The translations under genes and the position numbers were made by a program. A stretch of DNA of 27,590 bases from a virus: the IMG/VR virus record IMGVR_UViG_3300032134_000015, positions 1 through 27,590 of that record; one strand, written 5' to 3'. This document shows, one piece after another, positions 3,359 to 27,590 of the stretch (position 1 is the stretch's first letter; each line of letters opens with the position of its first letter). Under the pieces are notes generated by a model. It ran no database searches. It saw only the letters and a list, made by a program, of their open reading frames with translations, and was not told the origin of the DNA.

Positions 3359-3488
3359 TCCTCCAAGCGTTATAGTATTCAATACATTTAGCGGTTAATT
3401 TTTCAGCCTCGGCCAAATCTTTTTCTGCCAGGGCGGCTTCCTTATACCGATAGGACATTTCCCACAATACGTCTTTTTTCATGCTCAT
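3348..3488 (-). CDS. 46-aa helical protein, unknown
   Basis: The first gene after the promoter at 3535-3563. ATG 3488 is preceded by GGAG at 8 bases. The product is a charged amphipathic helix: residues 10-36 alternate Glu/Lys with Ala/Leu (KEAALAEKDLAEAEKLTAK), which would suit a short coiled coil. No family is recognised. It opens the operon that continues through DUF932 to primase and helicase. Confidence 0.65.
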   Translation of the reverse strand: MSMKKDVLWEMSYRYKEAALAEKDLAEAEKLTAKCIEYYNAWRNAE

Positions 3489-3579: not shown

Positions 3580-4056
3580 TCATCCTTCACAAGCCAGAGC
3601 TAGTTCCATCTCTTCAAAATAGTGGTCGTCAATCCATTCAATTGCAGGAAGAATTTTTTCCAAGACCCCTACTGGAAGATTATACTTAGATAATTCCCAT
3701 AGAAGAGCGGCAGTTACGATCCCTGCTAAACTGTATTGCCGGTGCCGTCCCTTCCCTGAATGTCGATCCCCTACGGTCTCGATCAATTTTTCATTGGTCC
3801 AGTGACGTATCCGACGAGCAACTAAGTCAACCTCATCCGGGCGAGAAGCTAGTCTCTGACTAAGTTCCCGGAGGCTCATAAAGGGGGTCGTGGCATGTGC
3901 GGCGATGTTTTTCATGTTCAAGATGATGACACTCGGTTCCTCCAATCGTTGTTGCACTTCAATCTCGGTCTTCAAACTTTTGCAGATGTAATCTCCTGAC
4001 GCTTGGTCATAACTGACGGTTATCCACCAAGGAACTTTTCCTTCCATTGTAATCAT
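3580..4056 (-). CDS. MerR-like helix-turn-helix protein (158 aa)
   Basis: Residues 60-136 look like a MerR-type winged helix: MSLRELSQRL, then VARRIRHWTNEKLIETVGD, a basic wing GKGRHRQYSLAGIV, and LPVGVLEKI. It is therefore a DNA-binding regulator. The N-terminal 55 residues (MITMEGKVPWWITVSYDQAS...) are not recognised and sit where classical MerR proteins have no domain. The frame is open to a GTG at 4128 with GGAGG ten bases before it. I chose ATG 4056 because it overlaps the upstream stop as ATGA. The gene ends just before the replication promoter (3535-3563). Base composition is more GC-rich than the flanking phage genes, which suggests separate acquisition. The target is unknown. Confidence 0.72.
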   Translation of the reverse strand: MITMEGKVPWWITVSYDQASGDYICKSLKTEIEVQQRLEEPSVIILNMKNIAAHATTPFMSLRELSQRLASRPDEVDLVARRIRHWTNEKLIETVGDRHSGKGRHRQYSLAGIVTAALLWELSKYNLPVGVLEKILPAIEWIDDHYFEEMELALACEG

Positions 4057-4247
4057 CCAAATACCCGCCCATCCATAAGCCGATACCACTTCTCGGATGC
4101 CATAATCTTGTCGTAATCTGTCATCCACAAGGAAGTTTCCTCCCTCGCCTCTTGCGTGTATTCTACCCCAAATTGGTAACGGGTAGTAGGAGAATAGTCG
4201 TCAAAGCGTATGATTTCTGCGGTTCTCCGCTTGCGTACTCTAGTCAT
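4053..4247 (-). CDS. Small protein coupled to MerR-like gene (64 aa)
   Basis: A 64-aa protein with a basic N-terminus (MTRVRKRRTAEIIRF) and a more acidic, aromatic remainder. It is not recognised. The ribosome binding site AAAGGAG is seven bases before ATG 4247. The stop overlaps the MerR-like ATG by four bases, so the two are translated together and may act together. It shares the higher GC content of its partner. Confidence 0.68.
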   Translation of the reverse strand: MTRVRKRRTAEIIRFDDYSPTTRYQFGVEYTQEAREETSLWMTDYDKIMASEKWYRLMDGRVFG

Positions 4248-4292: not shown

Positions 4293-4487
4293 TTATTGGA
4301 ATGCTTTTCCTTTGTATTTATTTAGAAGTATGCCCCACTTAGCATTTGCAATCCTAAGTTCAACAGGTTTCATCCCCGGATCATACTCAGCCCCAATAGC
4401 AAATAGTTCAGGGTGCTTCTCAAATGCCTCCTCTAACTTTTTTGGTCCTAATGACCCTATATGTGTTAGCTTGTGGTATTTAGACAT
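4293..4487 (-). CDS. Small Lys-rich protein, unknown (64 aa)
   Basis: A 64-aa product with a plausible folded pattern (KLEEAFEKHPELFAIGAEYD, then ELRIANAKWGILLNKYKGK). No family is recognised. The upstream sequence lacks a clear Shine-Dalgarno (only GAGCC about 12 bases before the ATG), so translation may be weak or coupled. It lies in the same direction and operon as its neighbours, 39 bases after the 42-aa membrane gene. Confidence 0.6.
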   Translation of the reverse strand: MSKYHKLTHIGSLGPKKLEEAFEKHPELFAIGAEYDPGMKPVELRIANAKWGILLNKYKGKAFQ

Positions 4488-4526
4488 AGCTGGGCTGGCT
4501 CAATTCTGATACCGCCCACACTAATG

Positions 4527-5518: not shown

Positions 5519-5703
5519 TTATTAAATCCTTTCACAAACTTGGAAGGCCGACCAGCGACTTCCCATATAGTTACCTCAACATGACCCCGTTTAACCCTGT
5601 CATCAAAGACAAGTAACGCCTCTTCCATGCTGGTAGCGGTAAAATTAGGGCTGGCTTCATCGTTAGTGATGAACCCATCAACAGAAAACAATGCGTCAGT
5701 CAG
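5515..5703 (-). CDS. Small protein, unknown; start uncertain (62 aa from CTG)
   Basis: The conserved-looking part runs LFSVDGFITNDEASPNF, MEEALLVFDDRV, EVTIWEVAGRPSKFVKG: an alpha/beta small protein with no recognised family. There is no ATG near the expected start. A CTG at 5703 overlaps the upstream TGA as CTGA and has GGAGG six bases before it, mirroring the ATGA couplings elsewhere in this operon. Alternatives are TTG 5691 or GTG 5769. The last has AGGAGG only three bases upstream and would overlap the previous gene by 70 bases. The stop overlaps the next ATG by four bases. Confidence 0.58.
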   Translation of the reverse strand: MTDALFSVDGFITNDEASPNFTATSMEEALLVFDDRVKRGHVEVTIWEVAGRPSKFVKGFNK

Positions 5704-5945
5704 TAGTAGCCTCCAACATACATGAGGATATCCATCACCTCTATATCGTGAGGGTGCTCGTATTTCCACAACCCTCCTGAGTTGCGATAGTTGTCGGCCT
5801 CATCTTCTGACAAACTATGAAGCCTTACGTAGTGCATCCCGCCGTAGTCTTGGTATTGTACCGAGATTTCCCTGTAGTGATCTAGGGAATGTTTAATGAA
5901 GTCAGCGATACGCTTAACCTCAGTGTCTCTAGTTACGTCCAACAT
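5700..5945 (-). CDS. First gene after promoter, unknown (81 aa)
   Basis: An 81-aa product starting MLDVTRDTEVKRIADFIKHS, with a helical first half, then YGGMHYVRLHSLSEDEADNYR and a Tyr-rich C-terminus. It is not recognised. The open frame extends to 6035, but the promoter at 5976-6004 places the transcript start near 5969. Of the ATGs downstream, 5945 has GGGAG nine bases upstream, so it is chosen. It opens a run of small overlapping genes. Confidence 0.72.
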   Translation of the reverse strand: MLDVTRDTEVKRIADFIKHSLDHYREISVQYQDYGGMHYVRLHSLSEDEADNYRNSGGLWKYEHPHDIEVMDILMYVGGYY

Positions 5946-5975
5946 TTGCTTAACTCCCTCTCTCATTGTCCTTAT

Positions 5976-6004
5976 AGTATAGCAAACATATGCACGTATG
6001 TCAA
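5976..6004 (-). promoter_or_regulatory. Sigma-70 promoter for the small-gene operon
   Basis: On the minus strand: TTGACA (6004-5999), 17-base spacer, TATACT (5981-5976), followed by ATAAGGACAATGAG. It shares TTGACATACG and ATAAGGACAAT with the promoter at 3535-3563. It lies between the repeat region and the gene starting at 5945. Confidence 0.9.
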
Positions 6005-6020
6005 GTCCGTTGCGCCTGTC

Positions 6021-6262
6021 CTGATACCGGCTCATACTTTCGCACGTCCGCCGCTCCTCACCCCCGCCCCTGATACCGGAAGGAAGTCGAGCGCAGCGGA
6101 TACTACACTATATCTTAAAGACGAGCGAAGCGAGACATTACTAATGGAATTGAGCGAAGCGAAAGGTATAACTACATGCGAAGCATGACACTATACCGAG
6201 CGAAGCGAGGGAATTTTTGTATAAGGTTATGATACCGGACACCCCCCCTGTTCTGATACCGG
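6021..6262. repeat. Array: four TGATACCGG repeats flanking four GCGAAGC mini-hairpins
   Basis: TGATACCGG occurs at 6022-6030, 6071-6079, 6230-6238 and 6254-6262 (three are preceded by C). Between the two pairs, GCGAAGC occurs at 6125-6131, 6154-6160, 6178-6184 and 6200-6206, three of them inside GAGCGAAGCGA, with a GCGCAGC variant at 6091-6097. The copy at 6178 extends to a 5-bp stem (CATGC GAA GCATG). d(GCGAAGC) is known as an exceptionally stable DNA mini-hairpin. The stretch 5946-6337 has no gene. It may be a replication or packaging signal, a repressor-binding region, or repeats left by transfer. I cannot choose among these from sequence. Confidence 0.7.
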
Positions 6263-6288
6263 ATTGTGATATCGTCAGAAATCCAGAC

Positions 6289-6321
6289 AAAAAAATTCCC
6301 CGGTGCCGAAACACCGGGGAA
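6289..6321 (-). terminator. Intrinsic terminator
   Basis: On the minus strand a perfect 10-bp stem TTCCCCGGTG / CACCGGGGAA with a 6-base loop is followed by seven T. It lies 17 bases after the stop of the 6338-6568 gene and ends the transcript that begins at the 7545-7573 and 8230-8258 promoters. Confidence 0.93.
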
Positions 6322-6337
6322 AGGTTAGGAGAGATTA

Positions 6338-6568
6338 TCAATCTTTAATTAATGGTGTGGGGTTTTGTTTTAGCTCATGTAGTAGGCTATTCATCAAGCC
6401 TATTCTTTTGCGGTAATGCTCCACCATTTCAGGGTAGGCGGTTTCAATTTCAAAATAATCCGCCATGGCTTTCTCGATTTTAATAGCGATATTTTTCTCG
6501 AAGCGCCCATCGCATCCTCCGCCGAAACATTTCTTGAAATAGGGAAACGCATTTTCCATCCAAGACAT
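6338..6568 (-). CDS. Small protein with CFGGGC motif, unknown (76 aa)
   Basis: A 76-aa mostly helical protein with a Cys pair (KKCFGGGCDGRF, residues 13-24) that might bind metal or form a disulfide. The rest is amphipathic helix (IAIKIEKAMADYFEIETAYP, MVEHYRKRIGLMNSLLHELK). AGAGG precedes ATG 6568 by about nine bases. It is the last gene before the intrinsic terminator, co-transcribed with the 282-aa gene. Not recognised. Confidence 0.74.
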   Translation of the reverse strand: MSWMENAFPYFKKCFGGGCDGRFEKNIAIKIEKAMADYFEIETAYPEMVEHYRKRIGLMNSLLHELKQNPTPLIKD

Positions 6569-6589: not shown

Positions 6590-6644
6590 AGTTGATACAC
6601 TAGAGCCGCCGGGCATTCTGTCCAGCGGCTCAGGCTTATCAACT
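6590..6644 (-). other. Two-tier stem-loop between early genes
   Basis: The outer arms AGTTGATA (6590-6597) and TATCAACT (6637-6644) pair over 8 bp; the inner arms GAGCCGC (6603-6609) and GCGGCTC (6625-6631) pair over 7 bp. It begins at the stop codon of the 282-aa gene and ends shortly before the ribosome binding site of the next gene. No T-tract follows. This would be a strong RNA structure, perhaps an RNase III site or a differential-expression element. Confidence 0.62.
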
Positions 6645-7491
6645 AAGCGGCTACTGCGTCTAGTACGACGGCCTTGACTTTTGAGAGAAGCGATTTCACG
6701 TAATCGATTGCCTTGTCATGGTTATTGGCAAGTCCTTGAGTATGGGCAACGTTGGCAATTTCGATTGCCGCGAGCACAGCCTCAAGTTCCGGTTTGGTCA
6801 ATGTGGAAAGGTCCGCAACGTTTCCGGTAGTGCGCCCGGTGATAAGGTCACGCAGGTTCATGATCCCGGAAAAGCTATCAGGATTTTGAGCCGCCGTCGC
6901 ATCTCCTGATTGGCGATTGTCTGGACCTTTAACCGTAGCCAACCCAGCTTTTACCATTTGGTTTTGAAACTGGCCTTGACGGACCGGCTCAAAATCTAAA
7001 GCTTTCGGATTTTTCTCAGGCGTGTTATCCGCCTTTGGATCAATAACTCCGCCGTCTTCGTCACGGTAAACAAACGTAGAATTCAAAGCGTTATTGTGCG
7101 CCTCAAGCTGTCCATCATCGGCGAGACGGTATTTATCCGAATGATACGCAAGCAACGCCGCCTGAATGCCCAATTTCGTACGATTCATGAGTGTACGATA
7201 TCCGACCGCCTTGGCGTCCGGTTTCACATATCCAGCCGCCGTGAACATGGTGGCGCGGACACTATCCAACATGATCGGCATTCCATTAACTGCCATTTCT
7301 TCGATCACTGGCAAGGCAACCAGCGCAAAAGCTTTCACGTCAGCGGCCTCTGTCTTTTCGGATGCCACCGAATGTTTGTGGATGTTTTTGAATGTCCGCT
7401 TGATTGCGGCTGCATTGGCTGGAATGAACACCACTTCCTCAATGGTTTCCACTGCGTTTTTGATGCCTGACTTTTTGAGAGTATTTGTCAT
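6643..7491 (-). CDS. Unknown 282-aa early protein, distinct codon use
   Basis: A 282-aa soluble, mostly helical protein with no signal peptide or membrane segment. The N-terminal 130 residues look folded. Residues 150-190 are Pro/Asn/Gln-rich and probably disordered (PKADNTPEKNPKALDFEPVR, NRQSGDATAAQNPDS). The C-terminus is an Ala-rich helix bundle (LEAVLAAIEIANVAHTQ, KSLLSKVKAVVLDAVAA). No family is recognised. AAGGA is ten bases before ATG 7491, and two promoters lie upstream. Third positions are clearly more GC-rich than in the neighbouring genes (many GCG, GCC, ACG, GTG codons), resembling the capsid gene. This suggests either high expression with host-adapted codons or recent acquisition. 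The first-gene position suggests an abundant early product. Confidence 0.8.
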   Translation of the reverse strand: MTNTLKKSGIKNAVETIEEVVFIPANAAAIKRTFKNIHKHSVASEKTEAADVKAFALVALPVIEEMAVNGMPIMLDSVRATMFTAAGYVKPDAKAVGYRTLMNRTKLGIQAALLAYHSDKYRLADDGQLEAHNNALNSTFVYRDEDGGVIDPKADNTPEKNPKALDFEPVRQGQFQNQMVKAGLATVKGPDNRQSGDATAAQNPDSFSGIMNLRDLITGRTTGNVADLSTLTKPELEAVLAAIEIANVAHTQGLANNHDKAIDYVKSLLSKVKAVVLDAVAA

Positions 7492-7544
7492 TGTTTTGAG
7501 TCCTTCTAATCTGGCGAACCGTTGTGGCCGCCTTCCGTACGATT

Positions 7545-7573
7545 ATAATCGCATTTTCAGCACTATATGTCAA
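7545..7573 (-). promoter_or_regulatory. Sigma-70-like promoter upstream of the 282-aa gene
   Basis: On the minus strand: TTGACA (7573-7568), 17-base spacer ending TGC (extended -10 type), GATTAT (7550-7545). A perfect TATAAT in the overlapping palindrome GATTATAATC would give a 20-base spacer. The upstream GGACTTGACATA is shared with the 5976-6004 promoter. Confidence 0.72.
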
Positions 7574-8229
7574 GTCCTAACTATAGGTTTATCGTCCGTG
7601 CCGGCACCTCATACATAGGAATATGAGCCATGTAATTATTGCATACCTAGTACTTGTTGCGAATTACTCTTAACTTCAATAGTGCCTAGAATGGCCTAGA
7701 ATGGCCGCAGGTTTGCAGGTTCAAATTAGATAGTACGGGTTAGGCCGAGGTATGCGCTTGTCAGCGGCGTTTATATGCCAGCCTATAGCTATTCACATAT
7801 TTATTGTGTTAATTGATTTTAAGGTCAATTCACATATGTTTGGTGTAGTATTACAGACCTGTCGGCATATGGTTGCGGGCCTATCAATCGGGCGGGCTTT
7901 GGGCATGGCGGGCATGGCTGCATCGCCTAGTATCATGCGGGATACACGCACTTTCTCTATGGTTATTCATGATCCTTTGGATACTCTCAGGGTTAACCAT
8001 ACTTTTTCTATGGGTATTAAATGGTCCCTATAACCACAATTTAGGTAGGGCTATGGGGGGGTTTTACTTCTATGGTCCTAATGAGAGAGGTAACCTAAGA
8101 ATTTCTACAATAAATTATGGATTTGAGAAAAGGTAGCCTTAAGAGTGGTTGCCCTTCGGCACACTTGCCAAGCCTCTATGTTCCCCCCTAACCCCCAAGG
8201 GGGTAATGGACCTCCCGGCCCATATATCT
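7574..8229. other. Mostly non-coding divergent control region
   Basis: About 650 bases without a convincing gene. It holds a 10-base palindrome GTGCCGGCAC at about 7598-7607, a tandem CCTAGAATGG pair at about 7685-7704, two ATTCACATAT copies (near 7790 and 7830), a CCCCCAAGGGGG hairpin near 8190-8203 and one weak plus-strand ORF (7969-8136). It is the leader of the transcript from the 8230-8258 promoter. No tRNA was found. Confidence 0.45.
7969..8136 (+). CDS. Possible 55-aa membrane protein (weak)
   Basis: This ORF encodes MILWILSGLTILFLWVLNG followed by a soluble tail (GFYFYGPNERGNLRISTINY...). One N-terminal hydrophobic helix and a sensible tail make it protein-like. Against it, there is no Shine-Dalgarno, no plus-strand promoter in front, and it opposes the minus transcript from 8230. 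It could be a small membrane gene at the edge of the late block, or chance. Confidence 0.3.
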   Translation: MILWILSGLTILFLWVLNGPYNHNLGRAMGGFYFYGPNERGNLRISTINYGFEKR

Positions 8230-8258
8230 ATTATACACCCAAATTAGCACTTTGTCAA
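8230..8258 (-). promoter_or_regulatory. Consensus sigma-70 promoter, leftward
   Basis: On the minus strand: TTGACA (8258-8253), 17 bases, TATAAT (8235-8230), a perfect match to consensus. It is preceded by TTTTAC, identical to the sequence before the opposite promoter at 8316-8344, so the two form a divergent pair. It reads toward the 282-aa gene through about 730 bases of leader. Confidence 0.87.
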
Positions 8259-8315
8259 GTAAAATCGTACAAAACAACTAATTTTATTTTTTTTACTAAA
8301 ATATGCATTTTTTAC

Positions 8316-8344
8316 TTGACAACCCCTCTGATTTGCAGTATAAT
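8316..8344 (+). promoter_or_regulatory. Consensus sigma-70 promoter for the rightward operon
   Basis: TTGACA (8316-8321), 17 bases, TATAAT (8339-8344), a perfect consensus, preceded by A/T-rich tracts (TTTTTTAC) that could act as an UP element. It is the only clear plus-strand promoter in the window and is placed 60 bases before the Hsp20 gene. It may drive the whole structural block. Confidence 0.92.
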
Positions 8345-8356
8345 GGTATTAGGGTT

Positions 8357-8379
8357 GTAGTTGTCCGTATGGAGACTAC
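8357..8379 (+). promoter_or_regulatory. 5' UTR hairpin ahead of hsp20
   Basis: GTAGT, TG, TCC, loop GTAT, GGA, G, ACTAC: a short imperfect stem in the roughly 55-base leader between the transcript start and the AAAGGAG of the Hsp20 gene. Leaders of bacterial ibpA genes are known RNA thermometers (ROSE type). I see no clear pairing to the Shine-Dalgarno here, so that role is open. Confidence 0.35.
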
Positions 8380-8406
8380 CTCATTAGCTAGGATCAAAGG
8401 AGATAT

Positions 8407-8799
8407 ATGATGACTAGGATTAAGATTCCGAATATTCTTGTAGATGGTTATATGTGGGGTGATATGCTCACCAACCTTACAAGAGAGAAGTTCCCACATA
8501 TGGATATGACTAAACTTGAAGAAGGTGAGTACGAAGTACACGTTTCCTTAGCAGGGTATAAGAAAGAAGATATCTCTGTATCCTTAGAGGGTAATATCCT
8601 GGATATTAAAGGAGACTGGAAGACAGATGCCGTAGAGTACCTTATGCATGGAATTGCTAAGAGGAAGTTTCACAGACAGCTACCCTTACACGAACATATT
8701 AAAGTTACTGGGGTAAGTATGGACAACGGCATCCTCACCATTAAATTAAGCCGGGAAGTACCCGAAGATAAGAAACCTACAACATTTGAGATTGAATGA
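8407..8799 (+). CDS. Small heat-shock protein, IbpA/Hsp20 family
   Basis: A 130-aa protein with an alpha-crystallin domain: EYEVHVSLAGYKKEDISVSL, ILDIKGDWK, then YLMHGIAKRKFHRQLPL, which parallels the IbpA pattern YL..GIA.R.F.R.F.L, then GILTIKLSREVPEDKKP and a C-terminal FEIE like the I-x-I anchoring tail. Such holdases keep unfolding proteins soluble; phage copies probably help virion protein folding or protect late in infection. It is the first gene after the rightward promoter, with AAAGGAG ahead of tandem ATGs at 8407 and 8410; either could be used. Phage-borne Hsp20 genes are known in aquatic phages. Confidence 0.92.
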   Translation: MMTRIKIPNILVDGYMWGDMLTNLTREKFPHMDMTKLEEGEYEVHVSLAGYKKEDISVSLEGNILDIKGDWKTDAVEYLMHGIAKRKFHRQLPLHEHIKVTGVSMDNGILTIKLSREVPEDKKPTTFEIE

Positions 8800-23557: not shown

Positions 23558-24997
23558 ATGGTAGCTGGTGGCATAAAACAATTAGGCGACGGCCCCACTA
23601 AGTTTAGGGAGGAACAGTTTCGTTCTAATGCTCCCACTAACAGCGGGCAAGCTGCGGCTGAAGCGTTAATAACTCAGATAGGAAAGCTGACCACGTACGC
23701 TATTGATTCTGATAAAGCTAATGCTCATGCATCAGGTGTATTCGCACTAAAAAATGAAAGGGAAGGATGGGTAGCATCTGGAGTACTTCCTAGAGAACGA
23801 AAGATTAAAGAACAACAATGGATAAAAAACAATTCGGAGAAATATAGCCCTTCCGAACTTCTTAAGATTGTCAATGAAGCAAAAGCTATAGAAACTAAAA
23901 CAGTAAGGGATTCCCAGGGAAACCTCCGTCTTACTGACCTAAGAGGCAACTTTATGGATGACCCCCAAGGTGATCCTCCTGATGCTGTGGATTTAGAGAT
24001 ACTTGAATCATTCACCCAGTTTGACGAAATTAACAAGCAAGCACCTACAGTAGTTCAATCCTGGCTAGCCTTTGTTACCCCTGAAATCACTAAGATGCCT
24101 CTACAACAGCAACAAGAAGCTCAAGCTATATCTAAAGATATGACATTCAAAGCCAATAATATCTTTAAGACTGCTATAAGGATGGCACGAAACCCTCACT
24201 CCCCTATAGGCTCTATAGAATCTGACACTGCGGCTGCTGAACAACGCTTTAGTGAGATTAAATTTCAGTATGATTCATTTGTAGCTGGTCTAACTGGCCC
24301 CTACTTCATGAAACACATAGGAAAAGAACTAACTATTGACGCAGGAGAGAAGGTTCTGATGTCACTGAATCAGGATTTGCGTAATACTCTTGGGCGTAAC
24401 AATCTTCATACTGCAATAGGTGACCCTACTGGTACTAAACTCCAACAGATGATGGAAGACGGGAGAACTAGAGTATCTGCTATCTCGTCAGCCATTATGG
24501 ATAAAGGTGAACTAGGTACAAGAGTTAAAGCAGCTAGTATGCAAGCTACAGTATCTAACGTGCGGATACAGCTAAGAGAGAATAGGGCTGTTATGAACCT
24601 AACAGATGAGGAGTTTGAAATGGCTTCTCAATCTAAATACGTACGGCATGCTGTTCAAATGGCAGGACTTTTAGGAGGAAGGGGTGACCCTCTTGGCGCT
24701 TATGCAGCCAGCCTAGTAGCCAACATGGTTGGCAAAGGTAATAGAGAACACTGGCTGTCTAAAAGCGAAAAACTAGCTAAAGGAAATAATCCTAAATATT
24801 TTTCTGATCTTAATGCCTTACGTACTGCGCCTATCCACCCTGACGACCTAGATGCCCACATCTCTAACTTAACTAGGGGGCTTGAATCTATGCTTAAGAA
24901 ATACCCCGAAGAAAACCAACAAGAACGTATACGTGAAAACTTTAATAAAGTTATTAAGAGATTCGAGACAGCTAATAAGCAGTGGAAGGAGCAGTAA
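23558..24997 (+). CDS. Internal virion protein C-like (gp15-like, 479 aa)
   Basis: A 479-aa soluble helical protein in the gp15 position. ATG 23558 has CGGAG eight bases upstream and follows the gp14-like stop by 13 bases, so it is preferred to the longer frame from 23495, which overlaps gp14. Segments include MVAGGIKQLGDGPTKFREEQ and long helices through the centre; there is no signal or membrane segment. T7 gp15 forms the periplasmic part of the ejection channel with gp16. The protein is shorter than T7 gp15 (747 aa). Confidence 0.76.
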   Translation: MVAGGIKQLGDGPTKFREEQFRSNAPTNSGQAAAEALITQIGKLTTYAIDSDKANAHASGVFALKNEREGWVASGVLPRERKIKEQQWIKNNSEKYSPSELLKIVNEAKAIETKTVRDSQGNLRLTDLRGNFMDDPQGDPPDAVDLEILESFTQFDEINKQAPTVVQSWLAFVTPEITKMPLQQQQEAQAISKDMTFKANNIFKTAIRMARNPHSPIGSIESDTAAAEQRFSEIKFQYDSFVAGLTGPYFMKHIGKELTIDAGEKVLMSLNQDLRNTLGRNNLHTAIGDPTGTKLQQMMEDGRTRVSAISSAIMDKGELGTRVKAASMQATVSNVRIQLRENRAVMNLTDEEFEMASQSKYVRHAVQMAGLLGGRGDPLGAYAASLVANMVGKGNREHWLSKSEKLAKGNNPKYFSDLNALRTAPIHPDDLDAHISNLTRGLESMLKKYPEENQQERIRENFNKVIKRFETANKQWKEQ

Positions 24998-25002
24998 TTC
25001 TA

Positions 25003-27590
25003 ATGGCAGAGTCATCTGTATTAGAGCAACCTCAAGTACAAGAACCTGCCCTCCCTGAGTTGGAGGAGGAGCCTCTTGATATGAGCATACTCCCTCCTAT
25101 GCCAGAAGAGGAGCCTGTTGAAGAGATTACCATTCCCCCTCATAATCGTGAGTTGGAATATACCCTGTCTAATATGGCTAAGACGGGTGATTATGATACT
25201 TTGCAGAGTATGTCTATAGCGCAAGAACAACACAAACTTTCTAGTGCTGTTATAGGTGCGTTACATTCATCTGCTATTAGTAAACAGGATGCTCGTTCTA
25301 TAGTGGAGGAGATGGCTACTCGTTCCCGCCCCAGGAAATCAAATGGGGAAGCTATAACGGATAACATTATACCTGGTGCCCATCCTGACATCCGTAAAGC
25401 TATGTCCGACTCTATCGACGTTGACCATGCTAACAGAATTACCATCAACCATCAAAATAAAAGTCTTAATTTAGGAGAAGGTAGGGCTGCTCGTAATGAT
25501 CATAGCCCTGTTGCCCTAGAAGCAGCACAATACCTTAGTGTCAAGAACAGAGAAGCTGCACGTAGGCTTAAAGAGTTTGATGAAGGCAATTTCTCTCTAG
25601 AAAATATAATTGAGTTTGTCAACCCCATAGGAGGGGAAGACCCTGAAGGCATGGATATTGATATCTGGCAGACAGGTAAAGACCTACTTTCAGGCGAGTT
25701 TAATTACGAAGACTTTAACACAAAGATGGAGTCTAACTACGGCGAAGACTGGGAATGGCGTATGAGTGGCTTCCTCGCTAAGGAAGGTATGATTGACGTA
25801 GGCATTCTACTTTTAGCCATGTCTCCTCTTAGTCCTATTGCCTTTGCCTTGAAAGCAAGTAGCTCTGCCCTTAAAGCCAGGGCTGTTGCTGGCATCGCTA
25901 GGTCTGCTGTTGTGGGTGTAGCAGGTGGTGCAGCCCAAGCAGTACAGAATGTTACTGTAGATCGTGAAGCTAATCTTGGTACAGAAATAGCCCTACGCAC
26001 AGGAGGGGCTTTAGCTGGTGAGGTGGTGTTTGGTGTAGCTCGCGCAGGTATCCACGCACTTAGAGCACCAAAAGCACGGGCGGCTGCTAAAGAAGCTGCT
26101 GAGTTAGCTGAAACCAAAGTTCTTGAAAGAGCGCAGTATGAAGATGCTGTTAAGACCTTACCTGACACACTGACCCCTCTTGCTGCTACACAGAGGGCTA
26201 GTCTCGTGGAATCAGTACAAGGATTCAATAAACTAGCTCACGATACCTCTGCTAAGTTCCTAGACCTTAAAGAAGCAGAAGACTCTGTTTTGGTTGGCCT
26301 TGCTAATGTTCTCGGCAAGGATGTTAATGAACTAGCTAATATGGAATTTGATGTGGCTTTTACCTGGGCTAATAAACTGTCTCGTGATATTGTTGAAGAA
26401 AGTGCTTCCCAATTCAAAAACCAAACTGAACTTAGTCGTTTTCTTAGTTACGATCTTATGGCCCTCACCCCAGGTAAATACGAAACATTTACCGATAAGG
26501 TATCCCTATTCTTGACGGATAAGGGTGTTGCTATGCGGGAGTTTGAAGAAGGTATTATCAAGAGTAATGACAACCTTCTTAACTCTATGATGCAGTTTGG
26601 TGGTGTTGCTGAGAGTGCTAACTTTGCAGGGCAAGCTGCTGCTAATCTTACAGACTCTCGTAACTTTTCAAGTAAGATTGCTTCAGGGCTAGGCATGCTC
26701 TATAGAGACGCTACTAAAGGATTGTCTGTTAAAGAAAAGAAGCTGCTGTCTAACATCCTAAGTGAAGGCTCTGCCGATACTACTGTATACGACTTTGATT
26801 CTTTTGTACCTAAGTTAGATGTACCGGAAGGGTCATACACCCCTGCTATCCGCGAAGCTTACACCAAGGTTAGGTTTACCTTGGATGCTGCACATGCAGT
26901 ATTGGACGAAGGCCGTGTTGCTGCGCTTAAAGGTAGGGTCATTCCTTACCGTAAAGGCTACGTAGAAAAGATGTCTAAACCTTCTAAGAAGAAGGGTTAT
27001 GTGTGGGTACGTGAGTTTGATAACGAGACTATGGCCCCTACTGAAAAGGCTGCATTTGAAATACCTGAATCTACTTTCAAAGCCAAGGTAGACCAGCTTA
27101 CTACACTAGTTCCTTATCGTAACGGACATATTCCTCGTGTGTATGACACTAAGAAGCACTACGTAGGTGTTGCAGGTAAAGAAGGAGTTAGTGTTGAGGC
27201 TTCTTTCTCAAGTCGGTATGAAGCTGAAGTATGGATGAAGGAGCGCCAAGCCCTTATCAATAATGACTCAGATAAGGTATTCAAGATAACAGATAATATC
27301 GACACAGGTGCAGGTGGGTTTACTGCTAGTCGTAGTACTATGGATTTACTGTCCACATTAGGAGAAGGCGCACAAAAGAGCGTAGCTGCTGCCCTTGAAG
27401 AAAGTGGCATAAACTCTGCTACTGTAAAACTTATGCTCCGTAGACTGGATACCGTGAATCCTGCCAAGGACTTTGGCAATAAACGTACTCAACTAGGTAT
27501 TGCTTCAAATAAAAAACTACAAGACTTAAGACTAAAATATCATAGTACAAAAAGCAGTGAAGCGCGTAAAGCTATTGAGAAGGATATTGA
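25003..27590 (+). CDS. Large internal virion/ejection protein, gp16 position (3' end beyond window)
   Basis: The frame opens at ATG 25003 (AAGGAG twelve bases upstream, rather far) and runs off the right edge with 862 codons and no stop. The start is acidic and Pro-rich (LEEEPLDMSILPPMPEEEP). Around residues 263-312 there is a hydrophobic stretch (MIDVGILLLAMSPLSPIAFA, then VVGVAGGAAQAVQ) able to enter a membrane; the rest is helical. Order and size match the T7 gp16 class, ejected into the cell envelope to move DNA. No transglycosylase motif is seen in the visible N-terminal part, unlike T7 gp16; it may lie further on or be absent. Confidence 0.78.
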   Translation, partial: MAESSVLEQPQVQEPALPELEEEPLDMSILPPMPEEEPVEEITIPPHNRELEYTLSNMAKTGDYDTLQSMSIAQEQHKLSSAVIGALHSSAISKQDARSIVEEMATRSRPRKSNGEAITDNIIPGAHPDIRKAMSDSIDVDHANRITINHQNKSLNLGEGRAARNDHSPVALEAAQYLSVKNREAARRLKEFDEGNFSLENIIEFVNPIGGEDPEGMDIDIWQTGKDLLSGEFNYEDFNTKMESNYGEDWEWRMSGFLAKEGMIDVGILLLAMSPLSPIAFALKASSSALKARAVAGIARSAVVGVAGGAAQAVQNVTVDREANLGTEIALRTGGALAGEVVFGVARAGIHALRAPKARAAAKEAAELAETKVLERAQYEDAVKTLPDTLTPLAATQRASLVESVQGFNKLAHDTSAKFLDLKEAEDSVLVGLANVLGKDVNELANMEFDVAFTWANKLSRDIVEESASQFKNQTELSRFLSYDLMALTPGKYETFTDKVSLFLTDKGVAMREFEEGIIKSNDNLLNSMMQFGGVAESANFAGQAAANLTDSRNFSSKIASGLGMLYRDATKGLSVKEKKLLSNILSEGSADTTVYDFDSFVPKLDVPEGSYTPAIREAYTKVRFTLDAAHAVLDEGRVAALKGRVIPYRKGYVEKMSKPSKKKGYVWVREFDNETMAPTEKAAFEIPESTFKAKVDQLTTLVPYRNGHIPRVYDTKKHYVGVAGKEGVSVEASFSSRYEAEVWMKERQALINNDSDKVFKITDNIDTGAGGFTASRSTMDLLSTLGEGAQKSVAAALEESGINSATVKLMLRRLDTVNPAKDFGNKRTQLGIASNKKLQDLRLKYHSTKSSEARKAIEKDI

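Follow-up and report, generated by a model that had tools for sequence, protein, structure and literature searches.

The non-coding DNA at 6022-6262 of the window, as we call the whole stretch of 27,590 nucleotides of viral DNA analyzed here, holds four copies of a nine-base box, TGATACCGG, and the two inner copies enclose a cassette of mini-hairpin units. We propose, at a probability of roughly 40%, that the boxes are putative protein sites controlling an early promoter and that the hairpins are a DNA-level accessory to them. The boxes lie at 6022-6030, 6071-6079, 6230-6238 and 6254-6262, all on the + strand; these are the only exact copies in the record, where 0.14 are expected, and none of 100 shuffles reached four or more. 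Their start-to-start distances (49, 159 and 24) are irregular and lack helical phasing. One-mismatch boxes occur at 4507-4515 (TGATACCGC, +), standing singly 19 bases upstream of the start of the leftward ORF 4293-4487, and at 1521 (TGATACCGT, +). The first-pass annotation had described two boxes on each side enclosing four GCGAAGC and one GCGCAGC, an arrangement that the coordinates bear out with every element on the + strand; it had placed the end of the region correctly at 6262 and its start one base early, at 6021.

Box 2 forms the left edge and box 3 the right edge of the cassette, with five GCG[A/C]AGC units between them, all on the + strand and separated by AT-rich spacers. Unit 1 (CGAGCGCAGCGGA, 6088-6100, with GCGCAGC at 6091) has a GCA loop, and its pairing is limited to the 2-bp GC stem. 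Unit 2 (CGAGCGAAGCGAG, 6122-6134, GCGAAGC at 6125) combines a C-G closing pair, tandem G.A, a GC stem and a GAA loop, the G.A module being deduced from covariation at other loci, and unit 5 (6197-6209, GCGAAGC at 6200) has the same sequence. Unit 3 (TGAGCGAAGCGAA, 6151-6163, GCGAAGC at 6154) has a T-A closing pair, while unit 4 (CATGCGAAGCATG, 6175-6187, GCGAAGC at 6178) is nested in GGTATA...TATACC at 6165-6197 and has a 5-bp stem, the exception among outer stems of 1-2 bp. Taken by itself, GCGAAGC is no rarity across the record, with 6 copies against 2.2 expected. The 150-base interval 6080-6229, nevertheless, holds 5 of the 12 GCG(N)1-2AGC sites on the + strand of the record and none of the 7 on the - strand (binomial P 4e-9), and exact GAGCGAAGCGA is confined to the array spacer within the record. 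Both the box count and this clustering agree with the earlier claim that the layout exceeds chance; the accompanying expectation that copies would be uncommon elsewhere in the genome held for the boxes and, for GCGAAGC, only in that the array is clustered.

DNA hairpins whose GNA or GNNA loop is carried by two or more G-C pairs show exceptional stability (Hirao and co-workers; PMC4686876), and the isolated d(GCGAAGC) heptamer has a reported Tm of 78 C (PMC4686876). This published chemistry agrees with the unusual stability that the first-pass annotation had ascribed to the sequence. The GC stem and GNA loop of these mini-hairpins are also found in the window, and the GNNA loop in its relative L121. 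The chemistry, however, concerns short oligonucleotides, whereas the window units are arrayed, mostly GA/GA-extended and bracketed by boxes that resemble protein sites. Energy models found nothing unusual in the + strand fold, and these models under-score the tandem G.A and GNA bonuses.

The array lies, as the first-pass annotation had stated, between a terminator and a promoter. The leftward genes upstream end in a strong intrinsic terminator at 6321-6296 on the - strand (11-bp stem and T run), and a leftward sigma70-type promoter, TTGACA-17-TATACT, at 6004-5976 on the - strand with 11 of 12 matches; box 1 sits 17 bases upstream of its -35. Downstream of this promoter is a small leftward gene (5700-5945, -, ATG at 5945) with no Pfam or PHROG match. 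The small ORFs 5889-6188 (+) and 6141-6341 (-) overlap the region mechanically, and neither fits the promoter and terminator. As both flanking genes run leftward, the hairpin-forming + strand is their antisense, or template, strand. As RNA, the transcribed strand has an unremarkable fold (z -1.3), and the array region has no Rfam match, which, together with its position between terminator and promoter and its antisense orientation, points to DNA rather than RNA as the level of action.

The record is a fragment of an incomplete viral genome, with a rightward block of TerL, portal, capsid and tail genes and a leftward block of primase and other early genes. TerL is 44.7% identical to that of Vibrio phage ICP2, in an alignment that covers 97% of its length; podoviruses of Lentibacter and Roseobacter follow closely, and the early and late blocks are opposed as in Zobellviridae. 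Judged from TerL and block layout, the record appears to come from a podovirus related to Zobellviridae; among annotated phages no DNA-level match was found. Klebsiella phage Klyazma, Lentibacter phage ICBM1 and Vibrio phage ICP2 share the TerL homology and opposed blocks with the window phage, but they lack the boxed array: GAGCGNAGCGA is absent from them, and TGATACCG occurs only as isolated, scattered copies. A gene for an Hsp20-type small heat shock protein (8407-8799) at the head of the rightward block is kept in relatives. The 282-aa protein at 6643-7491 retrieved no additional relatives when used as a query, and its structure model was too poor for use.

A TerL search yielded the relatives L121, L122 and L124 at 83-86%, with contigs up to 89% identical. 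TGATACCG is kept in L124 (two copies), L121 (three) and L122 (one), always on the + strand and in early-block or junction spacers, although every statement on conservation is limited to these three box-bearing contigs besides the window, two of which are cut near the region. L124 spans the whole region and has the same order of terminator, box, box and promoter as the window, with no hairpins between the boxes. Its box at 3390 is flanked by CTCATA...GCAC, like box 1, and its box at 3454 by ATT and then AAAAATTCC, like box 4, which is also followed by ATT; its leftward promoter lies at 3355-3327, 34 bases separating box and -35 against 17 in the window. In L121, boxes at 1, 131 and 149 bracket TGTGCGTAAGCACA, CTGCGAAGCAG and GCGTAAGC, mini-hairpins with GNNA and GNA loops whose sequence is unrelated to the window but which share its GC-G(N)NA-GC rule and its strand. 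Three of the seven + strand sites of this kind in L121 fall inside the boxes (P 3e-5), and a GC stem on a G-N-A or G-N-N-A loop, with a C-G loop-closing pair, is found in 5/5 window units and 3/3 L121 units, all on the + strand. The single box of L122 lies upstream of the first leftward gene there, and the part covered contains no hairpins; L130, which covers the junction only, has no box. The retention of boxes alongside the loss or replacement of hairpins argues that the boxes are conserved and the hairpins an exchangeable cassette, and L122 indicates that neither box number nor hairpins are essential. Conservation in relatives, which the first-pass annotation had made a test of its reading, was found for the boxes (L124, L121 and L122) and not for the hairpins, which are absent from L124 and the covered part of L122 and replaced in L121.

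The L121 contig starts exactly at a TGATACCG box, as would be expected if strains differ to the left of the box or if a DNA end lies there. Pairs of TGATACCGG were also considered as a widespread viral signal and rejected: 131 of the 153 pairs listed are spaced by a multiple of 3, as Asp-Thr-Gly coding repeats would be, and a tighter viral scan left L121 as the only convincing non-coding pair.

A similar array was found in L172 and L273, related phages with about 76% DNA identity to each other; tblastn of both against the window proteins gave no match, and L273 encodes a large terminase assigned to the same PHROG and has opposed blocks. In the early block of both (reverse complement, 6985-7170 in L172 and 6520-6830 in L273), a terminator is followed by two GATACCAGTGC boxes and a GCGAAGC array with long paired stems. 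L273 has a third GATACCAGTGC box after the array, and other direct repeats and a small gene come next in both phages. From the sequences, these phages apparently represent a second case, independent of the window and alike in layout. The GATACC core common to the window and L172/L273 may be due to chance; a general link between GATACC and hairpin arrays was discarded, as no enrichment was found (13 arrays against 11.2 expected). One L172 unit, AGTTGCGAAGCAAC, is identical to the P1 promoter hairpin of phage N4.

Beyond these phages, paired GAGCGAAGCGA arrays were found in at least 119 viral and at least 117 cellular stretches, from unrelated viruses and many bacterial and archaeal phyla. The closing pair is Watson-Crick at 83% of 238 viral sites (44% when shuffled) and 69% of 205 cellular sites (29% when shuffled), and the second outer position is paired at 67% of viral (31% shuffled) and 50% of cellular sites (29% shuffled). 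The closing pair of GAGCGNAGCGA varies among C-G, T-A and G-C, and a pyrimidine 5' with a purine 3' is dominant in viral and leading in cellular sites. Tandem sheared G.A pairs prefer a closing pair with a 5' pyrimidine and a 3' purine, a preference that this bias fits. The variants GCGTAGC, GCGCAGC and GCGGAGC pair alike, unlike the few controls with a TTC or AAA loop. Going by the covariation of its outer arms at viral and cellular loci, the unit GAGCGNAGCGA at large appears to be a genuine hairpin, with closing pairs of the kind that suits tandem G.A on a GNA loop.

In single genomes, paired GAGCGAAGCGA arrays can be dispersed in dozens, with spacers that vary: there are 64 pattern matches in the Mycolicibacterium hodleri genome G002 (locus L286) and 76 in the Oligoflexales genome G004 (locus L317). 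The idea that GCGAAGC hairpins are universally common was dropped, as GAGCGAAGCGA occurred 0 times in 1.46 Mb of viral loci that had been picked without regard to the motif; within one phylum, 2 of 299 genomes (one being the centre genome) had paired units and the dinucleotide-matched control had 0. A preference for the sense strand, as for an RNA, was likewise rejected for the other arrays: among the matches listed, viral intergenic arrays (loci L159-L277) were antisense 31 times and sense 12, and in cellular intergenic arrays (loci L278-L394) the GA strand was antisense to co-directional neighbors 7 times and sense 11. A search of the open-access literature for the 11-mer found no paper about such an element by title or abstract. 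In individual papers it appears in a viral terminal repeat (PMC10342651), in a primer or not as an element. The first of these is the terminal inverted repeat of Methanosarcina spherical virus, which contains GGTGAGCGAAGCGAATCC (PMC10342651). As in the window, the 11-base module lies in a viral non-coding element; unlike the window, it stands at the genome end of a linear archaeal virus and without box repeats.

Of the functions suggested by the first-pass annotation, an operator array is the best supported: the window, L124 and L122 all have boxes on the upstream side of leftward genes or promoters. Repeated short sites by a promoter, conserved in relatives, are found in the window and L124, and the L122 box and the box at 4507 are likewise upstream of leftward genes. 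The TGATACCG(G) boxes most likely bind a phage or host DNA-binding protein that would control the leftward promoter 6004-5976, with boxes 2 and 3 enclosing a mini-hairpin cassette that, as the comparison of relatives shows, is exchangeable. The + strand, template for leftward transcription, can fold the units into a GC stem and GNA loop, mostly with tandem G.A, as supported by covariation elsewhere, and the opposite strand cannot form the same fold. The cassette probably acts at the DNA level, being extruded under negative supercoiling or when single-stranded, and the extruded hairpins may alter the form of the region or make it accessible to the box-binding protein or to RNA polymerase. Several observations weigh against this control-region reading. 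Box binding is something we infer, and no candidate regulator was identified; a possible binder is a leftward 182-aa protein (3580-4128) that looks winged-helix/HTH-like by eye (RHWTNEKLI...GKGRHRQYSLAG); it matched nothing in Pfam, PHROG or PDB, and its structure model was poor. In addition, the spacing of the boxes lacks phasing, their distance to the promoter is not constant, the energy models show no unusual + strand fold, the main leftward promoter of L121 and L122 is hundreds of bases upstream of their boxes, and L122 manages with one box and no hairpins.

The main rival, which we regard as rather unlikely, is a dispensable repeat cassette that arises by template switching or slippage, inserts or expands in spacers and has no function here, so that only the boxes, or nothing, matter. 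Such a cassette would account for paired GAGCGAAGCGA arrays in unrelated viruses and many bacterial and archaeal phyla, with dozens in G002 and G004, for the absence of the array in L124 and its replacement in L121, and for box copies that flank it like an insertion between direct repeats. However, GAGCGAAGCGA is not dispersed in the record in the manner of REP-like elements, being found in one spacer only, and the recurrence of strand and box bracketing in L121, with a similar layout in L172/L273, is unexpected for random insertion. It is hardly credible that the hairpins are promoters of the N4 type, in which a virion RNA polymerase would recognize them on the template strand and transcribe the leftward early genes. 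The early promoters used by that polymerase do carry a GAA-loop hairpin on the early-gene template strand, as the window does for its leftward genes, and unit 4 shares the 5-bp stem and GAA loop of the P1 hairpin AGTTGCGAAGCAAC (P1 promoter, GTTGCGAAGCAAC; PMC12633501). Unit 4 is, nevertheless, the only one of five with an N4-type stem of 5-7 bp and 3-base loop on the template strand, most stems being too short, and a host-type promoter adjoins the array. No matching polymerase was found either, as no virion RNA polymerase gene was seen within the incomplete 27,590-base record and the large virion protein ORF 24982-27588, truncated where the record stops, matched no PHROG and gives no sign of a polymerase.

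The two other suggestions of the first-pass annotation, a replication origin and a packaging or concatemer signal, are not supported. In Klyazma and ICBM1, terminal repeats lie where the early and late blocks diverge (711 bases in Klyazma; PMC9960094). The corresponding junction of the window is 7492-8409, 1.2-2.1 kb from the array, which lies inside the early block and two genes away. At the junction, a different, non-coding 23-base element, GAATTTCTACAATAAATTATGGA (8099-8121), is conserved with few changes in 7/7 covering contigs, the window included and also those without boxes, and back-to-back perfect sigma70 promoters lie by it in the window (- 8258-8230 and + 8316-8344), L121 and L122. 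If there is a replication or packaging start in this area, GAATTTCTACAATAAATTATGGA would be a better candidate for it than the array, and it may equally be the true control site. We consider it unlikely that the array is a replication start or a site of primer or primosome assembly, with an initiator on the boxes and a primase or helicase loader recognizing the + strand hairpins. DNA-level hairpins with AT-rich spacers would suit that role, the array is in the early block with the primase gene downstream, and from one side of the boxes to the other the GC3 skew of the coding strand drops, both in the window and in L124. This change is not significant, however (P 0.19 and 0.08, respectively), the uneven box spacing is unlike that of iterons, the hairpins are missing from L124, and the element conserved at the junction is GAATTTCTACAATAAATTATGGA. 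A packaging site, concatemer junction or terminal repeat edge seems very unlikely: the terminal repeats of Zobellviridae at the block divergence, 1.2-2.1 kb away, and the L121 contig that begins with a box would speak for it, but the array lies off the junction, and both the L124 contig and the window read straight through it.

Taken more broadly, GAGCGNAGCGA could be a general ssDNA recognition element of viruses, bacteria and archaea, which in this phage family would be carried in early control regions as a cassette open to exchange, with protein-binding boxes on either side, a generalization that we hold to be doubtful. Chemically, d(GCGAAGC) is well known, but to our knowledge few natural roles have been established for it, the N4 promoters being the clear case. 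The array of the window is a cluster found in nature, with defined borders and a conserved partner motif, and since the hairpins are missing or replaced in relatives, their role is directly testable. That GAGCGNAGCGA covaries across unrelated genomes suggests the recurrence in nature of a defined DNA fold rather than of sequence alone.
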